Source: Chondrosia reniformis (Eukaryota; Porifera; Demospongiae; Chondrillida; Chondrillidae). From it: DNA of 64,000 nt. The position numbers were made by a program, and so were the translations under genes. The stretch lies in assembly GCA_947172415.1 (NCBI GenBank), contig OX359194.1, positions 6,454,401-6,518,400 of the forward strand, read 5' to 3'. This document shows, piece after piece, positions 1-26,749 of this stretch (within the stretch, counting starts at the first letter, position 1; the number at the start of each line of letters is the position of its first letter). A model generated the notes under the pieces. That model was not told where the DNA came from and ran no database searches. It was given only the letters and a program-made list of their open reading frames with translations.

Positions 1-111
1 AATGCACCAAATGCATAAACACTCATGCACATGTGTCTGTTAACAGCAGGGCAATATCCATGGCATCCCCCATCTACAATAGTTATCACTCTTCTCTTTT
101 TTCTTTTGTAG

Positions 112-2201: not shown

Positions 2202-2237
<36 letters not shown>

Positions 2238-5498: not shown

Positions 5499-5859
5499 CA
5501 TGACATAGTATGCTTTGTAATTTAACCATTAATTTTATAATGATATTTGATGTGTTTTGTAGGAATTATTAATAAAAGACAATATACTTTAAAACCCCAA
5601 TCAGCTGTAATTGCTGGCATACAAATCTACATATATAGGATTGTACTGACTGCATTATAAATGCATATTATATGTGTATGTGACACATATATGTTGAAAC
5701 TGCCCATAAATCGCCCTAGTATACCATAGAACTCACTGCATAGTTTATCTTTGGTTAATTTGTATATCTATGGCTTGTAATTGACCATGCCTAGTTACTA
5801 TATAACCTGCACACGGCTTCTAAAAAGTATATACTAATCTTGTTATATTGACTGTCAAC

Positions 5860-6096: not shown

Positions 6097-7077
6097 GCAC
6101 TTCAATAATGGGATTATCATCACATTTAATAGGATTATTTTTTGTATAGAGTCACCGATATTATTATTGGCGATGAACCAATAATATAAAAGAGACTGCA
6201 TGGAAATGCTTAAATGGACTGTAATATTACTCTGCATACCTCATGATCAAAAGCATGCAGAGCACTGTTACAGTACTGCCGGGCATGTATAATCTATCAT
6301 GACCATGGTTAATTTGAGCCCCAGCAACACTGCTAACTTTAATAAAGTGTGTTTTCCCAGCCCCTATAGCTAGCTCTTCAGATGATGGTACTTGCATGAT
6401 TATAATGTTTCTACATATCTAATACACACATATATGTACGTAATACATGTGCTTGGTAGCTAAAATATTTTGTATATAAATTATATATAAAACCAGCTGG
6501 TCTTGGTTGCCAATGGATTCCCAGCAACCTCTATTTATGTTTTAAATGTATTACGCCAAACCAGCCAAGTGACTGAAGTCCATCTTGGCTGGGGGGCCAA
6601 AGTCCTATCAGTATATTAAATTGACAACCAGTGATTACCTCCCAAAAGGGCAAAACAGCTGTCTGTGGTTCTTTGAGAATTTTTGTCCATCTTGGATGAC
6701 TGGGAGGTGATCACTGGTTGCCAATAGGACTTTGCAATTGGTGTACGTGTACATGAGGTAATGAGAGACTCTATAGGGAAACAGCTATTATTAGTTGTGA
6801 CTTCTCCTACGTATTTCACTGTGACTAGCATAAAGTGAACTGTTAATGTCAGATGGAACCAGGATACCAGATGGAAGATCTCGTAGTATGCTTTGCATTA
6901 TAGGCTCCTAAACTAAGAGTCCTAAGTCCTTATAATTAGAAGTCGTGTATACATATCTATGTAAACTTTAGGCAATAACATCCGGTATGCGTACTCAGTT
7001 ACTGGTTAACCACACCCAACTCCCAACTCCTAACCGTTCTACCTTGTTTCGAGGCTTGACTTGTGACATATCGCAAC
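6097..7077. other. Intergenic region with palindromic repeat family B
   Basis: No gene seen. 6598-6734 is an imperfect fold-back: the CAAAGTCCTAT and CAACCAGTGAT..ACCTCCCA arms on the left recur in reverse complement on the right. A relative is at 38060-38170 and the duplicate is at about 19650-19790. The last 150 bases before 7078 are conserved before all three intact kinase genes and probably hold their promoter and 5' UTR. Confidence 0.7.
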
Positions 7078-8964
7078 ATGATTCGAGGATTTCACTTGAA
7101 GGGAGTACGTCCGACTGGTAAAACGCTCGGGCGCGGGTCGTACGGCGAAGTTATCGAAGTAGAATGGTGCGGAAAGTTGTGTGCTGCGAAGAGAATGCAC
7201 GATATCTTTCTCAAGGACCTTCCCAGATTGGAAATGGAAAAGATGGTGGGTGATTTTGAAAAGGAATGTCAGACATGGTCCACTTTGAGACATCCAAATA
7301 TTGTTCAATTACTCGGAAGTTATTACCCAGTCGGTAGTCCCGTACCGACCATCGTGTTGGAGAAGATGGACACCTCTCTTCGTCATTACCTGGAGGATCA
7401 CAGTAAAGAGGAGTTCCTCCTTCCAGACAAGGTGTCCATCCTTCATCAAGTAGCTCAAGGACTGTGCTACCTTCACGCCCACAATCCACCACTAGTCCAC
7501 CATGACTTGAGTCCCAACAATATCTTATTAAGTAGAGGATTGTTTCAGACAAAGCTAACAGATTTTGGCATGACCCGAGCCGTCAATCCGTCAAAGCTGA
7601 CTCGTAGATCATCAGTAAAGGGGACCCAAGCATTCATGCCTCCTGAAGCACTCGATGTACCTCCTCGCTACAATGAGAAGTTGGATGTGTTCTCCTTTGG
7701 CAACTGTATTACAACCACTTTGACTCACGAGTGGCCAAATCCATCTCACCCGACTGCATATGATAAAGGTAGAGCCATCCTGCGGACAGAATTTGAGAGA
7801 AGGAGGCGCCAGATTGATCTGTTGAGTGCTCGAGAGGAGGAGCTGTTTCTGCCCCTCATCAAAAGGTGTTTGGAGGGTGATGCAACCATTCGTCCAAGCA
7901 GTGCAGAGATAGTATCAGAAGTGAAACAGATTGAGTCTACTCTCCAAAGTACTGAACCATCAGCAACCAGTCAGGTTCAACAAGCCATGTCACAACTTCA
8001 ACAACAGTTTGATGAAGAGCGCCAGCAACATCGGACACAGCTAGCTAAACTCAAAAGAGATGTCAGTAGGCTCCAGAATGAGATTGTTACAGCCACTTCA
8101 GAAAAGGAGGCACTCCAGACCCACATACAGCTACATGAAGATAAAGGTTCAACACAGCCTTCCAATATAAAAATGTATCATTTTAATACCAAGTGTATTA
8201 GGACAATCTCTGATGGAGAAAAGAGGAAATGTTACGTAATAGCTGTAAATGAGAATGGTTTTCTTGCAGTAGCTGATCAGTTGAATAATTGTATTTGTTT
8301 GTTTGATTCCAATGGTACACTAAGTACTGTGTTTCAAGTCAAGGAAAATGAGAAAACGGAAACTTTCTACACAGGTATAGAGTTCACAAGAAGGAACAAT
8401 ATTGCTATAGCAGATTGTTGTAGTAAACGTATTCTCATATATACTATCAAAGGAGAGCACATCCGTACTATAGTGGCAAAGAGTAAAACATACGGGGTTG
8501 CAGTTAATAAGAGAGGCATATATTTCTGTGAAGCAAAGAGAAAGTGTGTCTCAGTCTACAGTGAAGAAGGGGAATTCCAATTTGAGTTTGGGACTGCAGG
8601 AAGTGGTGGTCATGGCCAGTTTAGGAGACCAGTTTCTGTTGCCTTTGGTCCGGATGGTCTGTTGTATGTAGTGGATGCAAGTGATTGTACCATTCAAGTG
8701 TTTACTGAGCTTGGCACCTTTGTGAGGCAGTTTAAAGTAGAAATAGGTCAGCCTGATGAAATCTGTATAAGCAATAATGGACATGTGTTGATTTCATTTC
8801 CGTACTCAAATGAAATTGGAATATTCTCCGTTGATGGTCAACTATTACACAAGATTGCATTTCAATCAACACCAGAAAGTGTAAGATTAAACGAAAAAGG
8901 GGAGATAATGCTTCCAGATGGTGAAAACAGTATTTTAGTCTATAGAGTGTATTGGAATTTTTAG
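7078..8964 (+). CDS. Protein kinase-coiled coil-NHL propeller protein, gene 1 (628 aa)
   Basis: Intronless gene. The start is ATG 7078 (ATG ATT CGA, shared by all paralogs); the open frame extends upstream without another ATG. Residues about 10-275 are a TKL-like kinase: GRGSYGEV loop (18-25), catalytic Lys38 in CAAK, HHDLSPNN catalytic loop (141-148; Arg of HRD is His), DFG at 162-164, PPE instead of APE. About 285-360 is a Gln/Glu-rich coiled coil; this gene lacks 11 residues present in genes 2 and 3. About 375-628 has six NHL-type blades, with AVADQLNNCICLFD, YVVDASDCTIQVF and similar repeats. All kinase catalytic residues are present, so it is probably active. There is no signal peptide or membrane segment, so it is cytosolic. 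NHL propellers usually bind protein or RNA; the ligand here is unknown. Confidence 0.9.
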   Translation: MIRGFHLKGVRPTGKTLGRGSYGEVIEVEWCGKLCAAKRMHDIFLKDLPRLEMEKMVGDFEKECQTWSTLRHPNIVQLLGSYYPVGSPVPTIVLEKMDTSLRHYLEDHSKEEFLLPDKVSILHQVAQGLCYLHAHNPPLVHHDLSPNNILLSRGLFQTKLTDFGMTRAVNPSKLTRRSSVKGTQAFMPPEALDVPPRYNEKLDVFSFGNCITTTLTHEWPNPSHPTAYDKGRAILRTEFERRRRQIDLLSAREEELFLPLIKRCLEGDATIRPSSAEIVSEVKQIESTLQSTEPSATSQVQQAMSQLQQQFDEERQQHRTQLAKLKRDVSRLQNEIVTATSEKEALQTHIQLHEDKGSTQPSNIKMYHFNTKCIRTISDGEKRKCYVIAVNENGFLAVADQLNNCICLFDSNGTLSTVFQVKENEKTETFYTGIEFTRRNNIAIADCCSKRILIYTIKGEHIRTIVAKSKTYGVAVNKRGIYFCEAKRKCVSVYSEEGEFQFEFGTAGSGGHGQFRRPVSVAFGPDGLLYVVDASDCTIQVFTELGTFVRQFKVEIGQPDEICISNNGHVLISFPYSNEIGIFSVDGQLLHKIAFQSTPESVRLNEKGEIMLPDGENSILVYRVYWNF

Positions 8965-9440
8965 AATTGAAACTTTTTGGCAAGCTGACTTTTAAACTTT
9001 GAACATAAATATTATATTTAATGTACGTACATGCATATACGTAGTATGGTGGTGAATATCAAACTAGTTGTGACCACAGTTCATGACATCGCTTTTTATA
9101 TTCTGGTTAGAATGAAGAGAGCTAATGTGTTGTAGTAATGATGATGCAATAATCCACAGGTTAAAGGTCTAGCAGCTGGAGAAATAGAGGCCGGGGCTTC
9201 TCATCAATCAGAATATACTCACGATACAAAAATATGAACGATATGCTCGGTAGCTAATAAAGACATCCTAGAGTTAGGCATGAAAAAGACCTAGACATGC
9301 CAAAAATGCACTGCATGTACATTTGAATGTAATTATATAATAAAAAATACATATTCTGTGTATGCACGTACACTATAACACTTTCTACTATAGCAATACA
9401 TTTTTCATACCTGTAGACAAAACTAATTATAAAGTTCTTA

Positions 9441-9600
9441 TTGGGGCGAGCCTGAGCGAGCCCCACACTTACGATGTGTACGCTTCCGCTGTCTGTATGT
9501 ATATATATATATATATGTGCCGTACGTCATGCCGTAAAGTTCTATTTGCTCATTCGCAATGGCTGCACAGGGGCAGCTAGCGGACAAAGTATAGTAAACG
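9441..9600 (+). mobile_element. GGGGCGAGCC-ended element, truncated copy
   Basis: Begins TTGGGGCGAGCCTGAGCGAG, followed by a TA-rich run and GTGCCGTACGTCATGCCGTA. It matches the first ~130 bases of the element at 19967-20646, and the reverse strand of the right end of the element at 50177-50820. The far end is not recognised here. It sits exactly where the match between the duplicated segments stops. Confidence 0.7.
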
Positions 9601-9621
9601 TCATGAATGCTTCAACAATTC

Positions 9622-10182
9622 AGCAGGGTACATAAATACAGTGTATCATTACCCAGGCTCTTTATGTACAGTACTGTATGTATGTGAATATATGTATATA
9701 ATACAGCGAATCATATTAATGACTAGCCCATATATACAATACGTAATACAATACAATACAATATACATAATACAATACAATACAATATACATAATACAAT
9801 ACAATACAATATACATAATACAATACAATACAATATACATAATACAATACAATACAATATACATAATACAATACAATACAATACAATATACATAATACAA
9901 TACAATACAATAGGTAGACTGGGGAGTCTCTTAGCCATTGACAGTGGTCCCATAGCAACCACCTCCACATTGCAACTGACCTATTTGTCGTAAACCATAT
10001 GGAAAGTTTGGTGACAATTTTATTATTTGGTAGATTGGTAGTTTGAGCAATTCGCCAATATTTATTTCAACTGCCAAACTACACTGAATGTAGTAAAATT
10101 CGCTAAATGCCATAATTTGGATTTATTGCGTATTGTAATACAGTGTGTATATGATATTATATAGTGTCTTATTCCTTCACAG
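9622..10182. other. Duplication junction region with 24-bp satellite
   Basis: Holds a tandem array at about 9738-9912, unit ATAATACAATACAATACAATATAC (24 bases), then ordinary AT-rich DNA. I looked here for the missing first exons of VPS39 copy 2 and saw none. The duplication breakpoint probably lies in this stretch. Confidence 0.65.
9738..9912. repeat. 24-bp satellite array
   Basis: About seven copies of an AATAC/ATATAC composite unit; the last unit is expanded by extra AATAC steps. Open frames reading through it on both strands are by-products of the repeat. Confidence 0.95.
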
Positions 10183-11980
10183 TGGTCGGACTACTTGTTG
10201 CCTAGTCCACCTAAAGGAGTGGCTTGGCTAGGAGAATCCATTGTTACATGCACCAGAAAGGACCAGTGGTACTACGAATTAAGCTGTTAGCCTCGTAAGT
10301 GTACAGTCCAAACTCTACCACATGTACTGTACCCTTCATCCAAAGCAGAGCCTCTGTGAACGTCACTTTGCTAAGTGTTAATGTTGATTGAAGCACCAAC
10401 AATGCTGTTGAGCCAATTTATCATATACCATGATCGATGCTATATAGCTGGGACCCCAAGATTCAGTTGACCAAAGGGAATTTGAAATGAGTTTTTGTCA
10501 TTTTTAAGAAGGATATCCTAAAAATATAGAGAATTTTAATGTCTAATATGGCCAATCATAATATGGCTCAAGGGTAATATAGTGTTATGAGAACGTACAT
10601 AATTATATTTACATACATGTACACATTTGCTGTTTTGTGGTATATACGTACAGCAGGAGAATGCATTTAAATGTGAGCATTGACTTGTTCAGTATTTCTG
10701 ATTGGTTCTATTCCAGATTGAGTGGGCTCATATCATTTCTGTAGTCGGATGGGCAGACAAGGGAGATGTTTCCTGCCGGTAGCATGAAGCACGATGCAGT
10801 AATGGTGCTACTACCCACCAGAGAACTGGCTGTCCTGGTTGACAACAAGATGATAGTCTTGAACAAAAACCTTGATAAAACTGGTGATGTCATCTGGAAT
10901 GATTCTCCGATTGGCTTAGGTGAAGATATATTCCACATACGTACCCCTTTAATCAAGCACCTATGAATACAATTAACCTAGGCTGGATACCTACAGTAGT
11001 ACAATATATGTACATGAACTTCTCTCATTGTAGCTTCTTCACAGGTGTATGTATGTACATACGTAGGTACACATAGACTGCAGTACCTTTAAAGTCTGTA
11101 TTAACCGTTATGTCAATTTTTTGCCCATTTAATCATTTTTGTAATTTAATTAATGTGTTTTACCCTTCTTTCCTTACAGTGTACTCTGAACCTTATTTTG
11201 TGGCTCTTCTTCCAAAGTAAGCAACTAGTTACATCATGTACATAGCAGTTAATACTATCCATCTTGCACTAGTGAATGTTAGGAGATGTTTGACTTGAAT
11301 AGTAATGCTTAACTTCACCATTTACTGACACTTTAACATTTAGGTGTGGGACAATACACCAGTTTATAAAACTTTGTACGTACGTATGTACGTATATATA
11401 CTATCCCTTAAGAACTAATATTGACAAGCTAGTTCTTCATTTGTATGTAGTTTCACTATTGAAGTGAGAGCCAGAGAAGTTCCAAATCTTCTTCAAAAAA
11501 TTGAAGTAGAAAAGGTCAAGTTGATAGCCGGAGGGGGGTAAGGAAAAGCATAACAAATTTAAAATAATCTTCAGTAATTTATTATCATTTCAGTTATCCA
11601 TTGATATCAATCTCTTAATGTTCTTACCTACATACTTCATTACTGTATTACTTAGGAATTTTGTGTTTCTGACCAACAATCGAGACATATTCTATCTGGA
11701 ACCATCTCCGTTTGAAAAGCAGTGTGACTCCTTAGTAGAGAAGATGTACCATCATCTAGCACTTGTAGTGGCTGTGAGTGACAGACTGCACCTGATAATA
11801 TAGTACATACACGTATATTTATATAATATAATTAGAGACATCCGAGACACTCACACTGTCATTCCTCACTTCAGTCAACATGAATTAGACATTATTGTGT
11901 CTCCAGCATCAACTATGTAACCATTTTAATCATTTTGCATTTGTCTTTGTTCTTTTTGCACCTTCACTGGTGTGTTTTTC

Positions 11981-12011
<31 letters not shown>

Positions 12012-15000
12012 TAAAGCTCTCTCCAGGTTTAGTTACCTATAGGCTTTTTTACAGAGTAGGCATACGTACTGTATGTAGCATGTAGGAAAATGGTGTATTA
12101 GAATGTTTGTATACATTACATACGTATACTTTTACACTTCTCTTATATACTGTTTGTGAACAGGGTCTGATCAATGAAGACCAGGACAGGAAGAATGAAA
12201 GACGATTTTCTATAAATGAGAGCTATGCAGCCCGTTTATTTGTGCAGCACAAGTTTAAGGAATGTTTTGATAAATACTTGTCAATTAATTCAGGTACGTG
12301 TATGATTGACATTTATCAGTTACTGCTTTACGCTTGTCTTTCTACAATTTGTGAGGGAAACCCATCTACATACAGCAAATGTGACCACACTATTGCAAAG
12401 GTCAAGGTAGCAGGAAGATACACTAGGATCCAGAATCGAACCCTCTTTCCCTTTCTTCCCTCTCTTTCCCTTTCTTCCCTCCTCTTTCCCTTTCTTCCCT
12501 CCTCTTTCCCTTTCTTCCCTCCTCTTTCCCTTTCTTCCCTCCTCTTTCCCTTTCTTCCCTCCTCTTTCCCTTTCTTCCCTTCTCTTTCGCTTTCTTCCCT
12601 CCTCTTTCCCTTTCTTCCCTCCTCTTTCCCTTTCTTCCCTCCTCTTTCCCTTTCTTCCCTTCTCTTTCCCTTTCTTCCCTTCTCTTTCCCTTTCTTCCCT
12701 TCTCTTTCCCTTTCTTCCCTCCTCTTTCCCTTTCTTCCCTCCTCTTTCCCTTTCTTCCCTTCTCTTTCGCTTTCTTCCCTTCTCTTTCCCTTTCTTCCCT
12801 TCTCTTTCCCTTTCTTCCCTTCTCTTTCCCTTTCTTCCCTTCTCTTTCCCTTTCTTCCCTCCTCTTTCCCTTTCTTCCCTTCTCTTTCGCTTTCTTCCCT
12901 TCTCTTTCCCTTTCTTCCCTTCTCTTTCCCTTTCTTCCCTCCTCTTCCCCTTTCTTCCCTCCTCTTTCCCTTTGACCAGGAGTTATTCTAGTTACTGACT
13001 ACTACAGCAAACTGAATACAGTTACACGTATCATAACATATTCATATGCATACACAATGCACCAAATGCATAAACACTCATGCACATGTGTCTGTTAACA
13101 GCAGGGCAATATCCATGGCATCCCCCATCTACAATAGTTATCGCTCTTCTCTTTTTTCTTTTGTAGATCCTCTGAAAGTGATACGACTCTTTCCAAATCT
13201 TCTGACTACTAGGATGAAGGACCTTTTAAAGGAACCAGCCTATTCCACTCCCTTGTTGACTGGCATACAGGCAGATGAAGCCAGGGGAGGATTGATTGAC
13301 TATCTTAATTCGGTTAGTACTCCATCTCGTGTCACTGAGAGGTTGTGATGACTAGCAATAGAACCAGTTGAGTAGTTGCAAGAATTAATTTGCCATTGAT
13401 GCCATCTCTGAAATGTGTAATTACTCATCAGGGCTGCATGAAAAGTTCACTTTGGGACAAATGCCCCCCTTCCCCCCTTTATGCTCATAAGATATTTAGA
13501 CATGGTTGTTAATGTTATATATTGTTGCATACATACATACGTACTGTATGTATATGTGCTTAGTCATTGGATTGTACATATGTATCGCTGATATACGTAC
13601 GTACGTACATACGTATCTACAGTGCTTGCATGTGAACGTGTTGCTCTTATCCCTCTATGAAGCTGAGACAAAGAGTAGACCTGGAGAGATTGCATGCTGA
13701 AAAGACAGCCCAACTACCCCCTCACTGGCAGCTACAAAATTTGGACGAAATCTTCAGTCTCCTAGACACCACTCTACTCAAGTGCTACATACAGGTCAGC
13801 CATTCCATTGAAGCACCACCTTCTTGGTCTTACAACACGAGAAGCCAGTACTAGTGGTTTGAAGTGGAATGTAGAATTAATCCCTTCTTTAATGTTTTAG
13901 AATAATAAAACACAATTGGTAGGACCTTTTGTGAGGCGTCGAGGAAAGACTCTAGATCTAATGGAGAGTGAGAGACAGTTAAAGAAGGCAGAACTGACAG
14001 AAGAATTGGTGCAGCTTTATCAGTCAAAAGGAGAGCATAAGAAAGGTAGAACAGAGTTCTCCCATGTGTACCTACTGTGTTCTGTGTACCTACTGTGTTC
14101 TGTGTACCTACTGTGTACTTATTGCATAATGCCACATATATACGTACACTGCCTCTAGCACACTCCAGAATCATATGGCTGCAGCAAATCTAACTTAAAT
14201 CTAGTATGCACTAGTTCTTAAAGTGTACATATATGTGTGTCCTAAGTTCCAATTGCAGGATAACTAGGAAGTTTAGATTTGCCATTTTACTCTGTCAACC
14301 ATTCCTCTCTAGCCCTTGATCTGTTGAAGAACTGTCACACCAACCCTCCCACTCCTTCTCTGGCCGGTCTGAAACCCTCCATCAAATACCTTCAGCTTCT
14401 TGGAAAGGAATCCATGGATATCATACTGACCTACTCAAAGTGGATACTTGAAGATGACCCTCTGGCAGGACTTTCAGTGAGTGCTACATGAATGGTATAT
14501 ACAGTTTGGACATCTTCTATAAGTAAAGCTACTTTTAAGCTATTGTGTGTCTAGAGCCATTCATGAATTTAGAAGCTCCTAGTTTGAGACCAGCATACTG
14601 TCAAGTGTATTTACCTGTACTTGTGATGATTATAGATCTTTACAGAAGATTCTGATGAAGTAATGGAACTGGACAGATCCAAAGTAGTTCTGCACCTGGA
14701 GAATGTCTCTAAGAAGGACCCCTCCATTGTGCAAAAGTACCTGGTTAGTAATCCCACCTACTGAACATCTTATTAGGTAACACAGAAGAGAATATAACTC
14801 AGAGTATGACTACAGTCACGTGTACCTTGGTTCCACCCATTAGCTCGTTGTGCTCCTCGGGAGACATGAGTGGGTGGAATAAAATCCAGAGTCAAATCGT
14901 GATGATATCAAAGTTTAAGATCAGCTATATATCTTAAGTCCTCTATTGGGCCTATAGATCCCCTATTGGGCCTATAGATCCCCTATTGGGCCTATAGATC

Positions 15001-18000
15001 CCCTATTGGGCCTATAGATCCCCTATTGGGCCTATAGATCCTCTATTGGGCCTATAGATCCCCTATTGGGCCTATAGATCCCCTATTGGGCCTATAGATC
15101 CCCTATTGGGCCTATAGATCCCCTATTGGGCCTATAGATCCCCTATTGGGCCTAATTTCAACTGTAGTCATATTATATTTGTGTATTAAGAAATGTTGAT
15201 TATTAAATTATTAATAGAAAGTACAGACTAACATTGACGTCCTGTCTAGGAGGTATGTATATTCATAATACAGGACTGATTGATTGATTGATTGATTGGT
15301 AATTATTACAAATACTAGGACATGTAGTTTTAGTACTTTAATATCAGTTAGTGTACAGCTACGTACATAGGTATGTGACAGTGGATGCTTCAGTGTACCC
15401 TTACCAGTGCATCATGTACGTATGCTCATAGGAGCACCTGGTGGGAAGATGGAAGGAGGAGAGACCCGAATCCCATAACAAACTTGTTAACATTTATATC
15501 AGCAAGTTACGTATAAAACTGCAAGACCAATCAAAAGGCACAAAAGGTTATGGACTACTGTTAATAGCATATTTCTAACACCTTGGTAATGTTCCTAAGT
15601 AAATGTACAATGGTAGCTCAGTGGCAGAGCACTGGTGGTCATAACCAGCTGTCCTGGGTTCAATTACCTGCAGCAACTTCTTTAATGTTTTTGACTGTTA
15701 CCATTAAGAGGGAAACACTTTTATTTTCCCTCTTAATTTGGCTGATTATTTGTGGTCTGATTATCACTTCAATTTCACATATAAGAATGGAAATTTATGC
15801 ATAGAGGTTTGATACAAAAGATATAGCAATTTTCTAACTTAATCTGCATGTAATTACATATGAAGCATGTTGAGCAATATTCATGTATACTGCTACCTTT
15901 TTAACTAAATGCTCTAAATTTTTAGGGGAGAAACCCGTCAGGATGATAGAAGAGAGAAAAGTGCTTATAAAGTTCCTTGAAGAATCACAGCATTATAATG
16001 CAGAGAAATTTATTTACACTTTCCATCAGCCACGTATGTTTTAATTTACTGTTTACTTCTGATCTCTAGTTTACATGCACCTACGTACGTACGTACCCAT
16101 AGTGCAGTAAAGTGTCGGTGTTCTGTTAGCAATTAGTATTGACATACACAATAAGGCTGCGTGCATGATGGATTAACAGTTCATACAACTCAGACCTTTA
16201 ACAATGTACTGTAAGAATACAGTAGTGATCCATTAAATATGTACATACTAAAGAGTAGCCTAGGTCAGTAGAGTATACGTAAGCAATACACATACAGTAA
16301 GATTTAAGGAACTTTCAGAAAGAAACTTCCAGGGTTGCTGATGAAGGGTGGTATTCCAAGAAACAGCTGTCTGCCCCAGTGGATCAGAAAAACATAGAGA
16401 AGACTCTTGTATCCTCATCCAATGCTCTCACTGGGTTTAGTTCCCTATAGGCCTTTACTGTAGAATACGGAGATGTAAAGATGTACATGTTCTAGAGAAC
16501 TTTAGTTCAAAAGACTATTTGTGTCCTTGTATTTGACCAAGTTACTTGCCACCAACGTAGCATTGTCAAAGTTGTTTCATGAGCGAGCTATTCTTCTGGG
16601 TCGACTTGAAAAGCATGAACCTGCTCTGACTATTTATGCTCACATCTTAAAAGACCACAAAATGGCTTTAAGGTGAGCGTTTCCATGACAACCATGCAGT
16701 AAGGATTATTTATGCACAAGTCAGCTACTGGAGTTCTGTATTGGGCTATTTTAACAGTATCCTCAACATAATTTGTATGTTTATTTCATGCTAATACTCT
16801 GAAGTTTTAGTTGCTGCATCATTTTTGAAATCTAGAAACTATGAAGGCATTTCACCTAATTTAATTACTGATGTTCCTAATGACTGTCTGCTACATTTTA
16901 TCTGTAATTTTATCTTATAAGATGCAGTCTTTCTCTTTGTTTATAGACATTTCACTGTTCTGCACATACGTATATACATGTACTGTACATCACAGGCCAA
17001 TATTATGTGGCTTATAATTTTACTTTACATTCTGATTTGTATTCCTCACAATCTTTTCTATCAAACACAGATATTGCCAGCAGCAGTATGCTGGACATCC
17101 GAATGTAAGTCTGCACCAACTTGAAGTATTTTATGAGTATTAATGATTTAGTGATTTCTCTGCCTTTGTAGGTTTTTCAATTGCTTGTAAAAATTTACAT
17201 TTCTCGTACCGAGGATCCTGACTTATCTGAAGAGTATGTATTCAAGCAAAATGTGTCAGCTGCCGTTTCAGTCCTAAATGAACATCATGATAAAATTGAC
17301 ACCTCTACAGTATGTTATTTACTCCATCTATATACAGCTACTCCCCTCTCCCCCCCCCCCCCACCCCCACCCCTCCAAATATATGATCCTGCTTAGCTTC
17401 ATTCCATAGCACCTATTCCTTGCTCTCCCAATCAGTCCATCCCTCTGTTTCTATATGTCACCGCTGCAAAAACATTCATCTTGCTTTGTATCATACAAAT
17501 TGCTTTTAAAAGTGGTTCCAGTTGTTTTTAATACATTGTCACAATCACCTATCTATATGTCACTGTTCTAACGCTGTCCTCCCTTTACTTATACTAATAC
17601 TATATACCATGTGTTACTTTTTATTTTTCTTCAAGGTGCTCAATGAACTTCCCGCTACTACTGAAATGGCAGACATTTTAACTTTTCTAAATTTGGTATT
17701 TCAAGAGTGTAGCCAAAAGAGGCGACAGCTGCAGATACTGAGGGGGTTGACATATTCTAAATATTTGCAAGTTAGAGAATGACGCTATACCTACAGTTAT
17801 TACAGTATATAAATGTATAATATATTGGTGTGTACATAGTGACCAAAAGACTTCATTTTTAGTGTAGCTTATGTAAATACAGAAAGAGGACATTTTTGTG
17901 TCTTTAACTCAAATGCCCACTTTTAAGCAGTATAGTAGTACACTGTTGAACTGATGATGTAAGCCATCTTACTATGATGTGTACATGATAAATACAGTGT

Positions 18001-18555
18001 GCTAGTAAAATTATAATATGGTTGCCATGGTCAAATGTTAGATACTGCATTTACATGGTACATCAATGTGTTAGGGTCAAAAGGAAAAGACTGAAAGTCT
18101 AGGTAAAGCCTTTTTAGTTTCAGAAGAAGATGGATGTGTTGTGTGTAGCAAGAAACTGACAAGGTTCTTTGTGTTATGCAATAATTACAATAGTTATGCA
18201 ATGATTTTCTAAAGTACCTTTGACTCAACTGTGACCTGATTGTGTGATGTACATGTATGTACATGTATATAGGTGATGATTAAATGTAGAGGTAGATAAA
18301 TCTCACTCTTAAGGTCCAGAGTACATACACAATACAAATGAGAGACTCTAGGTCAACTTAATAATAATGGTCACCAATGAACTAACTGCACATATATTAC
18401 ATGTACTCTGACTTATATAAATGGCTATAGTTACAACTTCTCCTAATGAGTGTGACTAGCATAAAGTGAACTGTTAAAGTAATGTTTCCTCTCAACTTAG
18501 TGCTTTTGTGAGGGAGCCAGATGGAAGATTGAGGCACATTTATTGTGACTTGTAG
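10183..18555 (+). CDS. VPS39: VPS39-like HOPS subunit, copy 2, truncated at the N terminus
   Basis: CNH-domain exons 10183-10285, 10745-10919, 11180-11216, 11451-11537, 11656-11773 and 12164-12293 precede the 13 exons shared with copy 1 (13167-13312, 13663-13794, 13901-14045, 14313-14476, 14636-14743, 15432-15546, 15926-16033, 16561-16672, 17071-17104, 17172-17309, 17636-17770, 18075-18163, 18501-18555). MFPAGSMKHDAVMVLLP, VYSEPYFVALLPK and FLTNNRDIFYLEPSPF follow the VPS39 CNH pattern. The first ~170 residues expected for the family are absent. The first two exons do not join in frame with canonical GT-AG sites; homology asks for AGC then TCG, which needs a one-base shift. All later junctions are clean. 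It may be a 5'-truncated duplicate, or part of one gene split by assembly. Confidence 0.75.
12014..12090 (-). mobile_element. Family A repeat, partial
   Basis: Matches the GGCCTATAGGGAACTAAACC core region on the minus strand (here in diverged form) and the CACCATTTT...CATGCTACA head. The pyrimidine-rich part and the ribozyme-like end are missing. It follows an (ATA)n run. Confidence 0.6.
12443..12975. repeat. 20-bp polypyrimidine minisatellite
   Basis: About 26 units of CTCTTTCCCTTTCTTCCCTC with C/T variants, all pyrimidine on the plus strand. It lies in the intron between VPS39 exons 12164-12293 and 13167-13312. A strand this asymmetric can form triplex or slipped structures. It lies left of 13056, so whether copy 1 has it cannot be seen. 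Confidence 0.97.
14941..15144. repeat. 20-bp minisatellite in VPS39 intron, copy 2
   Basis: Same unit as at 1866-2081, with a slightly different number of units and a different variant unit (CCTCTATTGGG near 15040). Confidence 0.95.
15604..15688 (+). mobile_element. tRNA-derived SINE-like head, copy 2
   Basis: Duplicate of 2541-2625, with the A-box-like and B-box-like segments unchanged. Confidence 0.6.
16319..16463 (-). mobile_element. Family A repeat with hammerhead-like end, copy 2
   Basis: Duplicate of the element at 3262-3405, including CTGATGA, GAAACAGCTGTC and the stem I-like flanks. Confidence 0.8.
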
Positions 18556-18916
18556 CATGACATAGTATGCTTTGTAATTTAACCATTAATTTTATAATGA
18601 TATTTGATGTGTTTTGTAGGAATTATTAATAAAAGACAATATACTTTAAAACCCCAATCAGCTGTAATTGCTGGCATACAAATCTACATATATAGGATTG
18701 TACTGACTGCATTATAAATGCATATTATATGTGTATGTGACACATATATGTTGAAACTGCCCATAAATCGCCCTAGTATACCATAGAACTCACTGCATAG
18801 TTTATCTTTGGTTAATTTGTATATCTATGGCTTGTAATTGACCATGCCTAGTTACTATATAACCTGCACACGGCTTCTAAAAAGTATATACTAATCTTGT
18901 TATATTGACTGTCAAC

Positions 18917-19153
18917 ATGATTAGAGGATTTCACTTGAAGGGAGTACACGCGTACCCGATCAATACCATTCTGAACTGGGCACCTTGTGAGGCAGTTTAA
19001 GGTAAAAATAGGTAAACCCAACGACATCCGTATAAGCAATAATGGACTTTTTCTGACCAGGAAGTTTTAGATTAAATGAAAAAGGGGAGATAATGCTTCC
19101 AGATGGTGAAAACAGTGTTTTAGTCTGTAGAGTGTATATATATTGGAATTTTT
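18917..19153 (+). pseudogene. Internally deleted relic of the kinase-NHL gene, copy 2
   Basis: Almost identical to the relic at 5860-6096, with the same fusion of the first ~40 bases to the last propeller blades and the same frame breaks. It was made before the large duplication and carried along. Confidence 0.85.
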
Positions 19154-19966
19154 GCACTTAAATAATGGGATTATCATCACATTTAATAGGATTATTTTTT
19201 GTATAGAGTCACCGATATTATTATTGGCGATGAACCAATAATATAAAAGAGACTGCATGGAAATGCTTAAATGGACTGTAATATTACTCTGCATACCTCA
19301 TGATCAAAAGCATGCAGAGCACTGTTACAGTACTGCCGGGCATGTATAATCTATCATGACCATGGTTAATTTGAGCCCCAGCAACACTGCTAACTTTAAT
19401 AAAGTGTGTTTTCCCAGCCCCTATAGCTAGCTCTTCAGATGATGGTACTTGCATGATTATAATGTTTCTACATATCTAATACACACATATATGTACGTAA
19501 TACATGTGCTTGGTAGCTAAGATATTTTGTATATAAATTATATATAAAACCAGCTGGTCTTGGTTGCCAATGGATTCCCAGCAACCTCTATTTATGTTTT
19601 AAATGTATTACGCCAAACCAGCCAAGTGACTGAAGTCCATCTTGGCTGGGGGCCAAAGTCCTATCAGTATATATTTAATTGACAACCAGTGATTACCTCC
19701 CAAAAGGCAAAACAGCTGTCTGTGGTTCTTTGAGAATTTTTGTCCATCTTGGATGACTGGGAGGTGATCACTGGTTGCCAATAGGACTTTGCAATTGGTG
19801 TACGTGCATGTGTATAGGTAATGAGAGACTCTATTACTGCTATACAGCTATTATTAGTTGTGACTTCTCCTACGTATTTGACTGTGACTAGCATAAAGTG
19901 AACTGTTAATGTCAGATGGAACCAGGGTACCAGATGGAAGATCTCGTAGTATGCTTTGGGAATTTA

Positions 19967-20646
19967 TTGGGGCGAGCCTGAGCGAGCCCCACACTTACGT
20001 GAAGTACGCTTCCGCTGTCTGTATGTGTATATATATATATATATGTATATATCTATATATGTATATATGTATATATGTATATATGTGCCGTACGTCATGC
20101 CGTATAGTTCTATTTACTCATTCACAATGGCTGCCGCTAGCAAACCTCTGTAGACTAGCTGGTGCGGAAGGCTTCTGAGGAAAGAGGATGCGCACCAAAC
20201 ACGGCTAATCGACTACTGTGTTCAGGTGCTACACTCAGAGGAAGGCAATGCGGGGAAGGCTACTTCGCATTCGCCCTCCTACAGTCTAAAACACGGCTAA
20301 TCGCACCAAACACGGCTAACCGACTACTGTGTTCGGGTGCTACACTCATAGGAAGGCAATGCGGGGAAGGCTACTTCGCATTCGCCCTCCTGCAGTCTAA
20401 AGCACGGCTAATCGACTACTGTGTTCAGGTGCTACGCTCCGAGGAAGGCAATGCAGGGAAGGCTACTTCGCATTCGCCCTCCTGCAGTCTAAAATACGGC
20501 TAATCGACTACTGTGTTCAGGTGCTACGCTCAGAGGAAGGCAATGCAGGGAAGGCTACTTCGCATTCGCCCTCCTGCAGTCTAAAATACGGCTAATCGCC
20601 TACTGTGTTCAGGTGCTATGCTCGGAAAGGTATGCTCGCCCCCACG
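19967..20646 (+). mobile_element. GGGGCGAGCC-ended element with internal tandem array
   Basis: An insertion absent from copy 1, which reads straight through at about 6897. The left end is TTGGGGCGAGCCTGAGCGAG and the right end GCTCGCCCCCAC, i.e. inverted GGGGCGAGC ends. Inside are a (TATG)/(TA) run and about four and a half units of ~92 bases starting CGGCTAATCGACTACTGTG (near 20202, 20312, 20402, 20494, 20587). The first unit has an extra ~18 bases. No transposase. The open frame across the array simply repeats with it. Confidence 0.8.
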
Positions 20647-20808
20647 ATGATAATCATCTGTCTAGTATATTTAACATTATAGGCTCCTAAACTAAGAGTC
20701 CTAAGTCCTTATAATTATGCGAACTTTACGTACGTCTGGTTAACCACATCCAACTCCTAAACCCGTTCTACCTTGCTTCGAGAGGCTTGACTTGTGATAT
20801 ATCGCAAA

Positions 20809-22725
20809 ATGATTCGAGGATTTCACTTGAAGGGAGTACGCCCGACTGGTAAAACGCTCGGGCGCGGGTCGTACGGCGAAGTTATCGAAGTAGAATGGTG
20901 CGGAACGTTGTGTGCTGCGAAGAGAATGCACGATATCTTTCTCAAGGACCTTCCCAGATTGGAAATGGGAAAGATGGTGGGTGATTTTGAAAAGGAATGT
21001 CAGACATGGTCCACTTTGAGACATCCAAACATTGTTCAATTACTCGGAAGTTATTACCCAGTCGGCAGTCCCGTACCGACCATCGTGTTGGAGAAGATGG
21101 ACACCTCTCTTCGTCATTACCTGGAGGATCACAGTAAAGAGGAGTTCCTCCTTCCAGACAAGGTGTCGATCCTTCATCAAGTAGCTCAAGGACTGTGCTA
21201 CCTTCACTCCCACAATCCACCACTAGTCCACCATGACTTGAGTCCCAGCAATATCTTATTAAGTAGAGGATTGCTTCAGACAAAGCTAACAGATTTTGGC
21301 ATGACCCGAGCTGTCAACCCATCAAAACTGACTCGTAGGTCATCGGTAAAGGGGACCCAAGCATTCATGCCTCCTGAAGCACTCGATGTACCTCCTCGGT
21401 ACAATGAGAAGTTGGATGTGTTCTCCTTTGGCAACTGTATTACAACCACTTTGACTCACGAGTGGCCAAATCCATCTCACCCGACTGCATATGATAAAGG
21501 AAGAGCCATCCTGCGGACAGAATTTGAGAGAAGGAGGCGCCAGATTGGTCTGTTGAGTGCTCGAGAGGAGGAGCTGTTTCTGTCCCTCATCGAAAGGTGT
21601 TTGGAGGGTGATGCAACCATTCGTCCAAGCAGTGCAGAGATAGTATCAGAAGTGAAACAGATTGAGTCTACTCTCCAAAGTACTGAACCATCAGCAACCA
21701 GTCAGGTTCAACAAGCCATGTCACAACTTAGTCTTGAACATCAGCAGAAGACACAACTTCAACAACAGTTGGATGAAGAGCGCCAGCAACATCGGACACA
21801 GCTAGCTCAATTCGAAAGTGATGTCAGTAGGCTCCAGAATGAGATTGTTACAGCCACTTCAGAAAAGGAGGCACTCCAGACCCACATACAGCTACATGAA
21901 GATAAAGTTGGTTCAACACAGCCTTCCAAAATGAAAATGTATCGTTTTAATACCAAGTGTATTAGGACAATCTCTGATGGAGAAAAGAGGAAATTTTACA
22001 TAATGTCTGTAAATAAGAATGGTTTTCTTGCAGTAGCTGATCAGTTGAATAATTGTATTTGTTTGTTTGATTCCAATGGTACACTAGGTACTGTGTTTCA
22101 AGTCAAGAAAAATGGGAAAATGGAAACTTTCTACACAGGTATAGAGTTCACAACCAAGAACAATATTGCTATAGCAGATTGTTGTAGTAAACGTATTCTC
22201 ATATATACTATCAAAGGAGAGCACATCCGTACTATAGTGGCAAAGAGTGAAACATATGGGGTTGCAGTTAATAAGAGAGGCATATATTTCTGTGAAGCAA
22301 AGAGAAAGTGTGTCTCAGTCTACAGTGAAGAAGGGGAATTCCAATTTGAGTTTGGGACTGCAGGAAGTGGTCATGGCCAGTTTGTAGAACCAGTTTCTGT
22401 TGCCTTTGGTCCCGATGGTCTGTTGTATGTAGTGGATGCAAGTGATCATACCATTCAGGTGTTTACTGAGCTTGGCACCTTTGTGAGGCAGTTTAAGGTA
22501 GAAATAGGTCAGCCTGATGAAATCTGCATAGGTAATGATGGATATGTTTTGATTTCATTTCCGTACTCAAATGAAATTGGAATATTCTCCGTTGATGGTC
22601 AACTATTACACAAGATTGCATTTCAATCAACACCAGGAAGTGTAAGATTAAACGAAAAAGGGGAGATAATGCTTCCAGATGGTGAAAACAGTATTTTAGT
22701 CTGTAGAGTGTATTGGAATTTTTAG
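20809..22725 (+). CDS. Protein kinase-coiled coil-NHL propeller protein, gene 2 (638 aa)
   Basis: Intronless, same layout as gene 1 and start at the shared ATG ATT CGA. All kinase landmarks are kept: GRGSYGEV, CAAK, HHDLSPSN, DFG. The catalytic loop has SPSN where genes 1 and 3 have SPNN; the essential final Asn stays. The coiled coil is longer than in gene 1 (SLEHQQKTQLQ present). By eye the kinase domain differs from gene 1 at about 8 of ~280 residues, but the propeller at about 20 of ~250. Blade 4 (SGHGQFVEPVSV...DHTIQVF) is like the half gene downstream, not like genes 1 and 3. The promoter region has the upstream element inserted about 160 bp before the start. Confidence 0.9.
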   Translation: MIRGFHLKGVRPTGKTLGRGSYGEVIEVEWCGTLCAAKRMHDIFLKDLPRLEMGKMVGDFEKECQTWSTLRHPNIVQLLGSYYPVGSPVPTIVLEKMDTSLRHYLEDHSKEEFLLPDKVSILHQVAQGLCYLHSHNPPLVHHDLSPSNILLSRGLLQTKLTDFGMTRAVNPSKLTRRSSVKGTQAFMPPEALDVPPRYNEKLDVFSFGNCITTTLTHEWPNPSHPTAYDKGRAILRTEFERRRRQIGLLSAREEELFLSLIERCLEGDATIRPSSAEIVSEVKQIESTLQSTEPSATSQVQQAMSQLSLEHQQKTQLQQQLDEERQQHRTQLAQFESDVSRLQNEIVTATSEKEALQTHIQLHEDKVGSTQPSKMKMYRFNTKCIRTISDGEKRKFYIMSVNKNGFLAVADQLNNCICLFDSNGTLGTVFQVKKNGKMETFYTGIEFTTKNNIAIADCCSKRILIYTIKGEHIRTIVAKSETYGVAVNKRGIYFCEAKRKCVSVYSEEGEFQFEFGTAGSGHGQFVEPVSVAFGPDGLLYVVDASDHTIQVFTELGTFVRQFKVEIGQPDEICIGNDGYVLISFPYSNEIGIFSVDGQLLHKIAFQSTPGSVRLNEKGEIMLPDGENSILVCRVYWNF

Positions 22726-23183
22726 AATTGAAACTTTTTGCTGACTTTTAAACTTTGAACATAAATATTATATTTAATGTATGTAATACTATATACATAT
22801 AGTATGGTGGTGAATATCAAACTAGTTGTGACCACAGTTCATGACATCGCTTTTTATACTCTGGTTAGAATGAAGAGAGCTAATGTGTTGTAGTGATGAT
22901 GATGCAATAATCCACTGATTAAAGGTCAAGCAGTTGGAGAAATAGAGGCCAGGGCTTCTCATCAATCAGAATATACTTACGATACAAAAATATGAACGAT
23001 ATGCGCGGTAGCTAATAAAGACATCCTAGAGTTAGGCATGAAAAAGACCTAGACATGCCAAAAATGTCCATGCACTGCATGTACATTTGAATGTAATTAT
23101 ATAATAAAAAATACATATTCTGTGTATGCACGTGTACACTATAACACTTTCTACTTTAGCAATAAATTTTTCATATCTGTAGG

Positions 23184-24034
23184 CACTCCAGACCCACATA
23201 CAGCTACATGAAGAGAAAGTTGATTCAACACAGCCTTCCGGATCCAAAATGAAAATGTATTGTTTTCATTCTGAATATAATAGGACCATCTCTGATGGAG
23301 AAAGGAGGAAATTTTCCGTAATAGCTGTAAATGAGAATGTTTTTCTTGCAGTAGCTGATCAGTTGAATCATTGTTTAATTCCAATGATACACAAAGTACT
23401 GTGTTTCAAGTCAAGGAAAATGGGAAAAAGAAAACTTTATACACAGGTATAGAGTTCACAACCAAGAACAATATTGCTATAGCAGATTATCATAGTAAAC
23501 GTATTCTCATATATACTATCAAAGGTGAGCACATCCGTACTATAGTGGCAAAGAGTGAAACATTCGGACTTGCAGTTAATAAGAGAGGCATATATTTCTG
23601 TGAAGCAAAGAGAAAGTGTGTCTCAGTCTACAGTGAAGAAGGGGAATTCCAATTTGATTTTGGGACTGCAGGAAGTGGTCATGGCCAGTTTGTAGAACCA
23701 GTTTCTGTTGCCTTTGGTCCCGATGGTCTGTTGTATGTAGTGGATGCAAGTGATCATACCATTCAGGTGTTTACTGAGCTTGGCACCTTTGTGAGGCAGT
23801 TTAAGGTAGAAATAGGTCAGCCTGATGAAATCTGCATAGGTAATGATGGATATGTTTTGATTTCATTTCCATACTCAAATGAAATTGGAATACTCTCTGT
23901 TGATGGTCAACTATTACACAAGATTGCATTTCAATCAAGACCAGGAAGTGTAAGATTAAACAAAAAAAGGGGAGATATTGGTTTCAGATTATGAAAACAG
24001 TATTTTAGTCTATAGAATGTATTGGGATATTCAG
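23184..24034 (+). pseudogene. C-terminal half copy of kinase-NHL gene (linker plus propeller)
   Basis: Starts at the codon for the A of ALQTHIQLHE in the linker, with no kinase part, and covers all six blades. A deletion of about 10 bases near 23375 (TTGTTTAATTCC where intact genes have a longer TTTGTTTG stretch) shifts the frame. An A-run expansion near 23965 shifts it again, so the end is lost. Its left boundary follows TTTTTCATATCTGTAG, which reads like a 3' splice site in the 3' flank of gene 2. It could be a dead duplicate or a former alternative exon. Confidence 0.8.
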
Positions 24035-24459
24035 AATTGAAACTTTTTGCTGACTTTTAAACTTTGAACATAAATATTATATTTAATGTATGTATATACA
24101 TATAGTATGGTGGTGAATATCAAACTAGTTGTGACCTCAGTTCATGACATCGCTTTTTATACTCTGGTTAGAATGAAGAGAGCTAATGTGTTGTAGTGAT
24201 GATGATGCAATAATCCACAGATTAAAGGTCAAGCAGCTGGAGAAATAGAGGCTGGGGCTTCTCATCAATCAGAATATACTCACAATACAAAAAGATAAAC
24301 GATATGCTTGGTAGCTAATAAAGACATCCTAGAGTTAGGCATGAAGAAGATCTGGACATGCCAAAAATGTCCATGCACTGCATGCATTTGAATGTAATTA
24401 CACTACAACACTTTCTACTATAGCAATAAATGTTTAATACCTGTAGACAAAACTAATTA

Positions 24460-24811
24460 TAAAGTTTTTATATAGCTCTACAAGTGATGATTTTTGTAGA
24501 CTCCATCTTCAATTAATATGAAACCACAAGTGTGTCACTTGTGGTTGATTAATCAGTGAAGACATGCAAGCATCCAAACTCAAGTGTACCACACTAATGA
24601 GCCCAAATGAGGGCGAAACAGCTGACTACACAAAATATGGAATATCCAAACATTACTCCTAAGTCCTTATAAATTATGAGTCGTGTATCCTTGTATCTAT
24701 GTAAACTTTAGGCAATAACATCCGGTATCATGCGAACTTTATGTACTACTGGTTAACCACATCCAACTCCTAAACCCGTTTTACCTTGCTTCGAGAGGCT
24801 TGACTTGTGAC
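24460..24811. other. Spacer before kinase gene 3, with hairpin and ribozyme-like motif
   Basis: Unlike the other spacers. It has a perfect hairpin ACCACAAGTG-TGT-CACTTGTGGT near 24531-24553, a hammerhead-like motif at 24594-24628, and an ATCCAAAC direct repeat on either side of that motif. From about 24660 the shared kinase promoter sequence starts. Confidence 0.6.
24594..24628 (+). ncRNA. Degenerate hammerhead-ribozyme-like motif
   Basis: CTAATGAG, CCC, loop AAATGA, GGG, CGAAAC, AGCTG, AC. Stem II closes perfectly, including the G-C pair expected at its base. The core has CTAATGA for CTGATGA, and the cleavage site reads GAC where GTC is expected. The flanks do not form a regular stem I. It is probably a decayed copy of a ribozyme-bearing element. 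Confidence 0.35.
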
Positions 24812-26749
24812 ATGATTCGAGGATTTCACTTGAAGGGAGTACGCCCGACTGGTAAAACGCTCGGGCGCGGGTCGTACGGCGAAGTTATCGAAGTAGAATG
24901 GTGCGGAACGTTGTGTGCTGCGAAGAGAATGCACGATATCTTTCTCAAGGACGTCGACCTTCCCAGATTGGAAATGGAAAAGATGGTGGGTGATTTTGAA
25001 AAGGAATGTCAGACATGGTCCACTTTGAGACATCCAAACATTGTTCAATTACTCGGAAGTTATTACCCAGACGGTAGTCCCGTACCTACCATCGTGTTGG
25101 AGAAGATGGACACCTCTCTTCGCCACTACCTGGAGGATCACAGTAAAGAGGAGTTCCTCCTTCCAGACAAAGTGTCCATCCTTCATCAAGTAGCTCAAGG
25201 ACTGTGCTACCTTCACTCCCACAATCCACCACTAGTCCACCATGACTTGAGTCCCAACAATATCTTATTAAGTAGGGGATTGCTTCAGACAAAGCTAACA
25301 GATTTTGGCATGACCCGAGCCGTCAATCCATCAAAACTGACTCGTAGGTCATCGGTAAAGGGGACCCAAGCATTCATGCCTCCTGAAGCACTCGATGTAC
25401 CTCCTCGGTACAATGAGAAGTTGGATGTGTTCTCCTTTGGCAACTGTATTACAACTACTTTGACTCACGAGTGGCCAAATCCATCTCACCCGACTGCATA
25501 TGATAAAGGAAGAGCCATCCTGCGGACAGAATTTGAGAGAAGGAGGCGCCAGATTGATCTGTTGAGTGCTCGAGAGGAGGAGCTGTTTCTGTCCCTCATC
25601 AAAAGGTGTTTGGAGGGTGATGCAACCATTCGTCCAAGCAGTGCAGAGATAGTATCAGAAGTGAAACAGATTGAGTCTACTCTCCAAAGTACTGAACCAT
25701 CAGCAACCAGTCAGGTTCAACAAGCCATGTCACAACTTAGTCTTGAACGTCAGCAGAAGACACAACTTCAACAACAGTTGGATGAAGAGCGCCAGCAACA
25801 TCAGACACAGCTAGCTCAATTCGAAAGAGATGTCAGTAGGCTCCAGAATGAGATTGTTACAGCCACTTCAGAAAAGGAGGCACTCCAGACCCACATACAG
25901 CTACATGAAGATAAAGATTCAATACAGCCTTCCAAAATGAAAATGTATTGTTTTCATTCTGAATGTAATAGGACCATCTCCGATGGAAGAATTAGGAAAT
26001 TTTACGGAATAGCTGTAGCCGATAATGAGAATGGTTTTCTTGCAGTAGCTGATCATTTAAATAAATGTATTTGCTTGTTTGATTCCAGTGGCAAACTAAA
26101 TAGTGTGTTTCAAGTCAAGAAAAATGGGAAAACGGAAACTTTATACACAGGTATAGAGTTCTTAACAAGCTACATCATAGCCATATCAGATTGTTGTAGT
26201 AAACGTATTCTCATATATACTATCAAAGGTGAGCACATCCGTACTATAGTGGCAAAGAGTGAAACATTCGGACTTGCAGTTAATAAGAGAGGCATATATT
26301 TCTGTGAAGCAAAGAGAAAATGTGTCTCAGTCTACAGTGAAGAAGGGGAATTCCAATTTGAGTTTGGAACTGCAGGAAGTGGTGGTCATGGCCAGTTTAG
26401 GAGACCAGTTTCTGTTGCCTTTGGTCCCGATGGTCTGTTGTATGTAGTGGATACAATCGACTGTACCATTCAGGTGTTTACTGAGCTTGGCACCTTTGTG
26501 AGGCAGTTTAAGGTAGAAATAGGTCAGCCTGATGAAATCTGCATAGGTAATGATGGACTTGTGCTAATTTCATTTCTATATTCAAATGAAATTGGAATAT
26601 TCTCTGTTGATGGCCAACTGATACACGAGATTGTATTACCAGCAAAACCTGGAGGCATAAGTTTAAACAAAAAAGGGGAAATAATGGTTCCCATAATAAA
26701 TGAAAACAGTATTTTGGTATATAGATTGTATTGGAATTTTCACATTTGA
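24812..26749 (+). CDS. Protein kinase-coiled coil-NHL propeller protein, gene 3 (645 aa)
   Basis: Intronless, start at the shared ATG ATT CGA. The kinase has two extra residues (KDVDLPRLE where others have KDLPRLE) and otherwise keeps GRGSYGEV, CAAK, HHDLSPNN and DFG. The coiled coil is the long form. The propeller is the most divergent: blade 1 has VADNENG and DHLNKCICLFDSSG, blade 2 FLTSYIIAISDCC, and blade 6 ends IINENSILVYRLYWNFHI. Blade 4 (GGHGQFRRPVSV) matches gene 1, while ETFGLAVNKRG in blade 3 matches the half gene, so the gene is a mosaic of paralog patches. It is the last member of the array. Confidence 0.9.
   Translation: MIRGFHLKGVRPTGKTLGRGSYGEVIEVEWCGTLCAAKRMHDIFLKDVDLPRLEMEKMVGDFEKECQTWSTLRHPNIVQLLGSYYPDGSPVPTIVLEKMDTSLRHYLEDHSKEEFLLPDKVSILHQVAQGLCYLHSHNPPLVHHDLSPNNILLSRGLLQTKLTDFGMTRAVNPSKLTRRSSVKGTQAFMPPEALDVPPRYNEKLDVFSFGNCITTTLTHEWPNPSHPTAYDKGRAILRTEFERRRRQIDLLSAREEELFLSLIKRCLEGDATIRPSSAEIVSEVKQIESTLQSTEPSATSQVQQAMSQLSLERQQKTQLQQQLDEERQQHQTQLAQFERDVSRLQNEIVTATSEKEALQTHIQLHEDKDSIQPSKMKMYCFHSECNRTISDGRIRKFYGIAVADNENGFLAVADHLNKCICLFDSSGKLNSVFQVKKNGKTETLYTGIEFLTSYIIAISDCCSKRILIYTIKGEHIRTIVAKSETFGLAVNKRGIYFCEAKRKCVSVYSEEGEFQFEFGTAGSGGHGQFRRPVSVAFGPDGLLYVVDTIDCTIQVFTELGTFVRQFKVEIGQPDEICIGNDGLVLISFLYSNEIGIFSVDGQLIHEIVLPAKPGGISLNKKGEIMVPIINENSILVYRLYWNFHI

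Follow-up and report, generated by a model that had tools for sequence, protein, structure and literature searches.

Kinase-coiled coil-NHL propeller genes in the sponge Chondrosia reniformis and the genome-wide family to which they belong

Introduction

A stretch of 64,000 nucleotides from the genome of the demosponge Chondrosia reniformis (contig OX359194.1, positions 6,454,401 to 6,518,400 of the forward strand; hereafter, the window) carries three intact genes, K1, K2 and K3, each coding for a TKL-type kinase that continues through a coiled coil into an NHL propeller at the C-terminus. K1-K3 belong to a genome-wide family with many kinds of tail, beyond what the window itself shows. The reading that we favor, and regard as fairly probable, is that they are working members of a modular family whose kinase-coiled coil heads are gene-converted and whose tails diverge or are swapped, and in which clustering of the propellers by a ligand would drive kinase signaling. 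If this is true, an early-branching animal has assembled a repertoire of receptor-like proteins by shuffling exchangeable tails behind a kinase head that conversion keeps uniform, and so has an evolutionary counterpart of a constant/variable organization without somatic recombination. The family would also provide testable genes for the sensing of many symbionts by sponges, and the NHL propeller would be wired to a kinase in a second setting besides bacteria.

The Three Genes of the Window

K1 (7078-8964, 628 amino acids), K2 (20809-22725, 638 amino acids) and K3 (24812-26749, 645 amino acids) all lie on the forward strand, each in a single open reading frame. In every one of them Pfam recognizes Pkinase/PK_Tyr_Ser-Thr at E ~1e-34 and, taken alone, a single NHL repeat above cut-off, not six. 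A sequence search of the PDB led from the kinase part of K3 to plant CTR1 and TAK1, and from its propeller to TRIM2, TRIM3 and TRIM71. An AlphaFold2 model, whose input consisted of the K1-K3 proteins only, contains a 67-residue helix at residues 298-364 (21700-21900 in K2) followed by an NHL propeller at residues 376-632 (21934-22704 in K2), with strand 376-379 closing the last blade; the best PDB matches of the model are the NHL domains of TRIM2, Thin, TRIM3 and Brat. A preliminary description of this DNA, made from the letters alone, had proposed a TKL-like kinase, a coiled coil and a six-bladed NHL propeller in three intact genes and had named structure prediction as the means of counting the blades. 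Pfam, the PDB matches and the model bear out this architecture, and the strands of the model give six blades. Some caution is imposed by the fact that AlphaFold2 saw only three near-identical sequences and modeled the kinase poorly, with a predicted local distance difference test (pLDDT) score <50 over most of that part; because the modeled kinase is unreliable, its assignment rests on sequence.

The Pfam listings with E up to 1, which show 25 of 26 matches for K1 and every match for K2 and K3, include neither a RING nor a B-box. Read by eye, the linker between kinase and propeller is a polar, Gln/Glu-rich helix (residues 298-364) in which no membrane span was seen, and inspection by eye of the whole protein revealed neither a secretion sign nor a membrane span, so that the protein should be cytosolic.

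The Kinase Head

The kinase domain of K3 covers residues 14-282 (24851-25657, forward strand) and includes Lys38, an HHD motif, the Asn and the DFG, as judged from Pfam and alignments. By alignment, K1-K3 keep the catalytic Lys, Asp, Asn and DFG; across 28 aligned heads of the family, the Lys, the Asn and the Asp of DFG are invariant and the catalytic Asp is kept in at least 90%. HHD replaces HRD, with Arg changed to His, in K1-K3 and in 22 of the 28 heads, a substitution that recalls the non-RD immune kinases. A profile built from these heads finds CTR1 (3e-40), TNNI3K (4e-36), IRAK4 (5e-32) and TAK1 (6e-32), and also B-Raf, as its closest clear TKL kinases, and scores one EGFR entry at 2e-39, with JAK-type kinases, some tyrosine kinases and WNK in a similar range. 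Judged by profile scores rather than by a tree of reference kinase families, the kinase of K1-K3 is of the TKL type, with no single subfamily standing out. Among the heads of K1-K3, nonsynonymous divergence (dN) is 0.007 and synonymous divergence (dS) 0.07, and dN/dS is low, at 0.10-0.19.

One NHL member elsewhere, L055 (C10:1638724-1639728, reverse strand), reads YRSL at the HRD-like motif and is without the catalytic Asp; it is likely a pseudokinase within the kinase-head family.

A Genome-Wide Family with Many Tails

A search of the sponge's own genome with K3 found at least 74 places, namely the 39 kinase heads examined here, 25 further kinase places, mostly weaker, and 10 tail pieces. In 36 of the 39 heads a single frame covers kinase and coiled coil (L015, L036 and L037 are interrupted), and intronlessness is therefore largely common to the family. 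An NHL tail follows 19 of the heads: K1-K3, L012, L013, L014, L017, L018, L020, L021, L024, L026, L028, L030, L032, L034, L036 (degenerate), L038 and L055 (C10:1638724). Five heads have a Kelch tail (Pfam was run on two, both above cut-off), two have a DUSP tail (both above cut-off), two an IBR-like tail (Pfam on one, below cut-off), and one each an A20 tail (below cut-off), a PARP tail (below cut-off), a CPH/Cul7 tail (above cut-off) and an ankyrin tail in the same frame as the kinase. Two heads continue in the same frame into a Rab-like start, for one of which Pfam gave Ras at 22.4 bits, just above cut-off, and Roc at 24.7 bits, just below its own. Five tails received no assignment, and ankyrin repeats lie ~2.7 kb downstream of one of these heads.

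From their position on the same strand and close to the head, the Kelch, PARP, A20, CPH, DUSP and IBR-like tails probably belong to the head's own gene. Splice candidates match across the head-tail interval in phase 0 for Kelch (L056, L053) and CPH and in phase 1 for PARP; the splice-site scan found no donor at the A20 junction, which counts against this assignment there.

The locus L049 (C14:5978000-5985000) holds a kinase-coiled coil-ankyrin frame followed close by with LRR-Roc and COR-kinase frames. It is possibly an LRRK1-like protein with an extra N-terminal kinase.

An Intron Missing from the Head-Tail Junction

In the NHL relatives, the head appears to consist of kinase and coiled coil in one exon, to which the tail is joined mostly through a phase-0 intron. 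The junction was scanned for splice sites in 14 NHL relatives, L036 being left out. In 12 of them the NHL frame, which in several has an (L/V/F)RDW-like start, is directly preceded by a phase-0 acceptor; 11 have phase-0 donor candidates where the coiled coil ends, some beside candidates of another phase. Several points weigh on the other side: the scan found no phase-0 acceptor in L024 and L026 and no phase-0 donor in L028, L032 and L038, and phase 0 at the acceptor is partly built into the procedure, many acceptors coinciding with the in-frame TAG at which the frame opens. For this last reason more weight falls on the donors and on the alignment across the junction.

K1-K3 and L014 have no intron at this place and their frames are continuous. 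In K2, ..STQPSK-MKM aligns straight through the junction with ..STQSSK-NKM of L043 (C1), a spliced sister by its tail, and the window genes therefore seem to have lost the intron precisely; in K2 the missing intron would lie between 21930 and 21931 (forward strand), where the head and tail exons are fused. Either retroposition or cDNA-templated repair may have removed it. The preliminary description had noted the lack of introns and had considered an origin by retroposition. The genes are indeed intronless where it placed them, and the precise absence of the junction intron of the NHL relatives fits an RNA-templated loss. This concerns one intron only, the one-exon head being largely common to the family; moreover, inspection by eye of the 3' flanks of K1 and K3, short of a systematic search, showed neither a poly(A) tract nor a target-site duplication. 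It would be a further step to regard K1-K3 as unexpressed retrocopies heading for decay, as the precise absence of the intron and the broken copies near by might suggest. Such a fate is very improbable, given three open frames of >620 codons, the low dN/dS of the heads and a similarity among K1-K3 that continues ~55-160 bases upstream of the start.

Different Histories of Heads and Tails

Synonymous sites of head and tail were contrasted in 153 pairs among 18 NHL members; the pairs share history, and the counts are not independent. K2 and K3 differ at 10.0 of 203.7 synonymous sites in the head and at 33.3 of 165.8 in the tail (p 7e-6), and L014 and L020 at 46.7/197.3 and 112.8/149.8, respectively (p 3e-22). 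After Bonferroni correction 38 of the 153 pairs are significant, the head being lower in 37 and the opposite holding for L024-L026 (head 49.0/187.7, tail 15.0/179.5, p 7e-6). Where the proportion of synonymous differences (pS) in the head is <0.5, as it is in 34 pairs, the head lies below the tail in 32, with K1-K2 and L024-L026 as exceptions. Along K3, compared with K1/K2 in windows of 100 columns, identity is 94-100% in the head and 80-89% in the tail, save one inner tract at 94-98%; the drop, to 81-89% in the windows that follow, falls at a boundary between such windows that adjoins the former intron point, and the 3' flank of K3 is unrelated to those of K1 and K2. Some heads are also mosaic, L014 (NHL tail) and L042 (CPH tail) being 97-100% identical in some head windows and 75-76% in others. 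A run test on the silent sites of 10 heads, 8 of them from C11, scored 22572, whereas shuffling gave a mean of 13984 (standard deviation 1029) and none of 500 shuffles reached the observed value.

Because nearly all unsaturated pairs have lower synonymous divergence in the head and the silent-site test finds mosaics, the simplest reading is that heads are homogenized by gene conversion, chiefly within one chromosome, and that tails diverge or occasionally swap. Exchange of head sequence between chromosomes is weakly indicated. Stronger constraint on protein or codons could in principle keep the heads alike with no need of gene conversion, and the kinase heads do have a low dN/dS; this explanation is nevertheless improbable, since the contrast sits at synonymous sites and the silent polymorphisms fall in blocks beyond the reach of shuffling. 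That synonymous sites of the head are free to change follows from the reversal in L024-L026 and from the heads of K3 and L043, which differ at 134.5 of 196.3 such sites.

Trees of the two parts also disagree. The tail tree unites the K genes with L043 (support 100/97), whereas a tree of 35 heads, from which three interrupted heads and one cut by the locus end were left out, places them in an 11-row set without L043 (97/92). In the approximately unbiased (AU) test, the K genes and the C11-type set as one clade are rejected by the tail data (p 0.0002) and not by the head data (0.196). On the 35-head tree, tail type changes 12 times (minimum 9, with unknown tails as one group) against a shuffled mean of 16.5, none of 200 shuffles being as low, so that tail types appear clustered on the head tree yet turning over.

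Not all of the data point toward homogenized heads. The head is not lower than the tail in 78 of the 153 pairs, of which 76 have a head pS >=0.6, near saturation, the rest being L024-L026 and K1-K2, and the latter pair is without contrast (p 0.82). A head tree of 18 rows puts K and L043 on one side of a branch (58/95), K + L043 not being rejected, and three more AU cross-tests gave no rejection (p 0.143, 0.224, and 0.191); the conflict between trees is thus weaker than the synonymous contrast.

Tandem Duplication in the Window

K1 and K2 sit in a 13-kb tandem unit, the first copy of which, as far as it lies in the window, occupies 1-9416 and the second 13056-23182, both on the forward strand by self-comparison. 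Positions 1-6895 and 13056-19958 are 98.2% identical, and the K1 block (7023-9416) and the K2 block (20750-23182) are 94.6% identical; of the 2-kb stretch 10100-12100, between K1 and K2, the greater part has a 97% identical copy at C6:6451724-6453533, just upstream of the window. Searches of single exons against Pfam and the PDB gave no name to the gene duplicated alongside K1 and K2, which we presume to be VPS39-like. The broken relatives mentioned by the preliminary description as part of a local expansion are present on the forward strand: a headless copy between K2 and K3 (23181-24040) that retains the end of the coiled coil and the propeller and matches in three frame-shifted pieces, a short remnant with pieces of the start and the propeller (5860-6095), and the duplicate of that remnant (18917-19152).

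The tandem unit, 97-98% identical, may have arisen by true duplication or may reflect a haplotype that was not collapsed, and because K1 and K2 both sit in it, what was described as an array is possibly two genes and an uncollapsed allele. That K1 is the other haplotype of K2 rather than a third gene is a possibility to which we give about one chance in three. It accords with the closeness of the two units and with the C. reniformis genome note, which gives the k-mer completeness as 69.4% for the primary and 93.7% for the combined assembly, and four haplotypic duplications as removed (PMC12181767), figures that suggest much allelic variation; the note also mentions RNA-seq data for the species. 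The K1 and K2 blocks diverge more than the block beside them and differ in length by 10 codons, which speaks for separate genes, although alleles could show both features too.

Relationship to Known Systems and Possible Function

Three known groups of proteins resemble K1-K3 in part. The TRIM-NHL proteins (TRIM2/3/71, Brat, Thin) likewise have a six-bladed NHL propeller behind a coiled coil and are the closest solved structures; they begin with RING/B-box, whereas K1-K3 have a kinase there and RING and B-box are unmatched, which sets K1-K3 apart from TRIM-NHL proteins proper. Genome-wide, 150 NHL matches were scored of 612 candidates, and the propellers of the TRIM-NHL-like genes of this genome are 29-34% identical to that of K3 in six of eight cases and 24-25% in two. 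Dense arrays of NHL genes with long frames, mostly ~720-760 amino acids, lie at C2:180-460 kb, C9:7.16-7.29 Mb and elsewhere, and eight loci (L001-L008) look TRIM-NHL-like by eye, with RING, B-box or coiled-coil pieces, a filamin-like part and NHL. A lineage-specific expansion of TRIM-NHL genes is possible.

Kinase and NHL repeats are combined, as in K1-K3, in bacterial Ser/Thr kinases (PknD; a D. radiodurans kinase). The Mbk of PMC1262709 we take to be M. tuberculosis PknD. PknD crosses the membrane and exposes its propeller outside the cell, whereas K1-K3 have a polar coiled coil and a eukaryotic TKL-type kinase; thus they share the kinase and the six-bladed propeller of the PknD type and, by eye, not its single membrane span. 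According to two reports, the mycobacterial protein runs from kinase through a transmembrane segment to an NHL propeller, and in bacterial kinase-NHL fusions the propeller may regulate the kinase (PMC1262709; PMC6107167). The preliminary impression that the architecture was undescribed must yield to this precedent. Within the open-licence papers that made up the open-access literature searched, no description of a eukaryotic kinase-NHL protein was found; in the accessible text of one of them PknD serves as a template only (PMC3160408), and that of another, on Halichondria panicea, reports many receptors and kinase genes responsive to lipopolysaccharide and does not name a kinase-NHL protein (PMC8242945). 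Among bacterial genome contigs, 80 of 93 kinase relatives were kept, with 26-35% identity to the K kinase, and tblastn at E 0.01 found no K-type propeller in any of the 80 loci. In viral contigs, 35 stretches matched the search pattern and none was a relative; among phages, 18 records matched, the similarity of the five listed being confined to the kinase part.

TKL kinases with further modules (IRAK, RIPK, LRRK, TNNI3K) share with K1-K3 the TKL kinase and the presence of recognition or adaptor modules. Two heads of the family are followed by ankyrin repeats, and one of these has LRR-Roc and COR-kinase frames downstream. IRAK and RIPK carry Death, RHIM or CARD domains; no match to these stands among the Pfam matches listed for K1-K3, which have a coiled coil and NHL instead (other tails in the rest of the family) and heads that are apparently homogenized. 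IRAK4 and TAK1 act in the innate signaling of other animals, and for this reason an immune role for the K1-K3 family is plausible, if unproven.

In the mechanism that we propose, the coiled coil of the presumably cytosolic protein would bring the kinase into dimers or oligomers, and binding of a protein or RNA ligand by the propeller would cluster the kinases, which could then trans-phosphorylate one another and relay a signal much as IRAK/TAK1-type TKL kinases do. What the protein senses would depend on its tail, and what it signals on its head. We extend this to the whole family more tentatively, at somewhat less than even odds, as a plug-in repertoire in which one gene-converted kinase-coiled coil exon with a shared, mostly phase-0 socket accepts diverse tails and channels many inputs into one kinase output; its NHL and Kelch propellers, ankyrins and Rab-like, PARP, A20, DUSP and CPH parts might serve in recognition or as effectors. 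On this view an animal without adaptive immunity would possess a constant-head, variable-tail system. The propeller could instead be a docking or targeting platform, the kinase being constitutive or regulated by a scaffold and led to its substrates, or to RNA, by the tail. The nearest structures are propellers of TRIM-NHL proteins, which bring an E3 ligase to its targets, and tails as varied as these would be expected of substrate adaptors; the anatomy predicted is that of a sensor as well, and nothing decisive speaks against docking, which we nonetheless hold to be rather unlikely.

Other Genes and Repeats in the Window

Four further features of the window were noted. Positions 12302-12991 hold a long pyrimidine-rich simple repeat with several open frames (SLSSLLFPF repeats), which looks like a repeat and no gene. 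Exons of a CDC14 phosphatase lie at 38198-40064, with a match at E 4e-30 over 59 residues to a PDB chain of CDC14A and a second exon recognized by eye. A helicase (AAA_11) frame and RNB frames, HELZ2-like through a match below cut-off, occupy 54208-62239, with a second AAA_11 frame downstream. A filamin gene at 43755-49438 combines a CH domain with a 1250-amino acid open frame of Filamin repeats, 13 stretches of which are recognized by Pfam.

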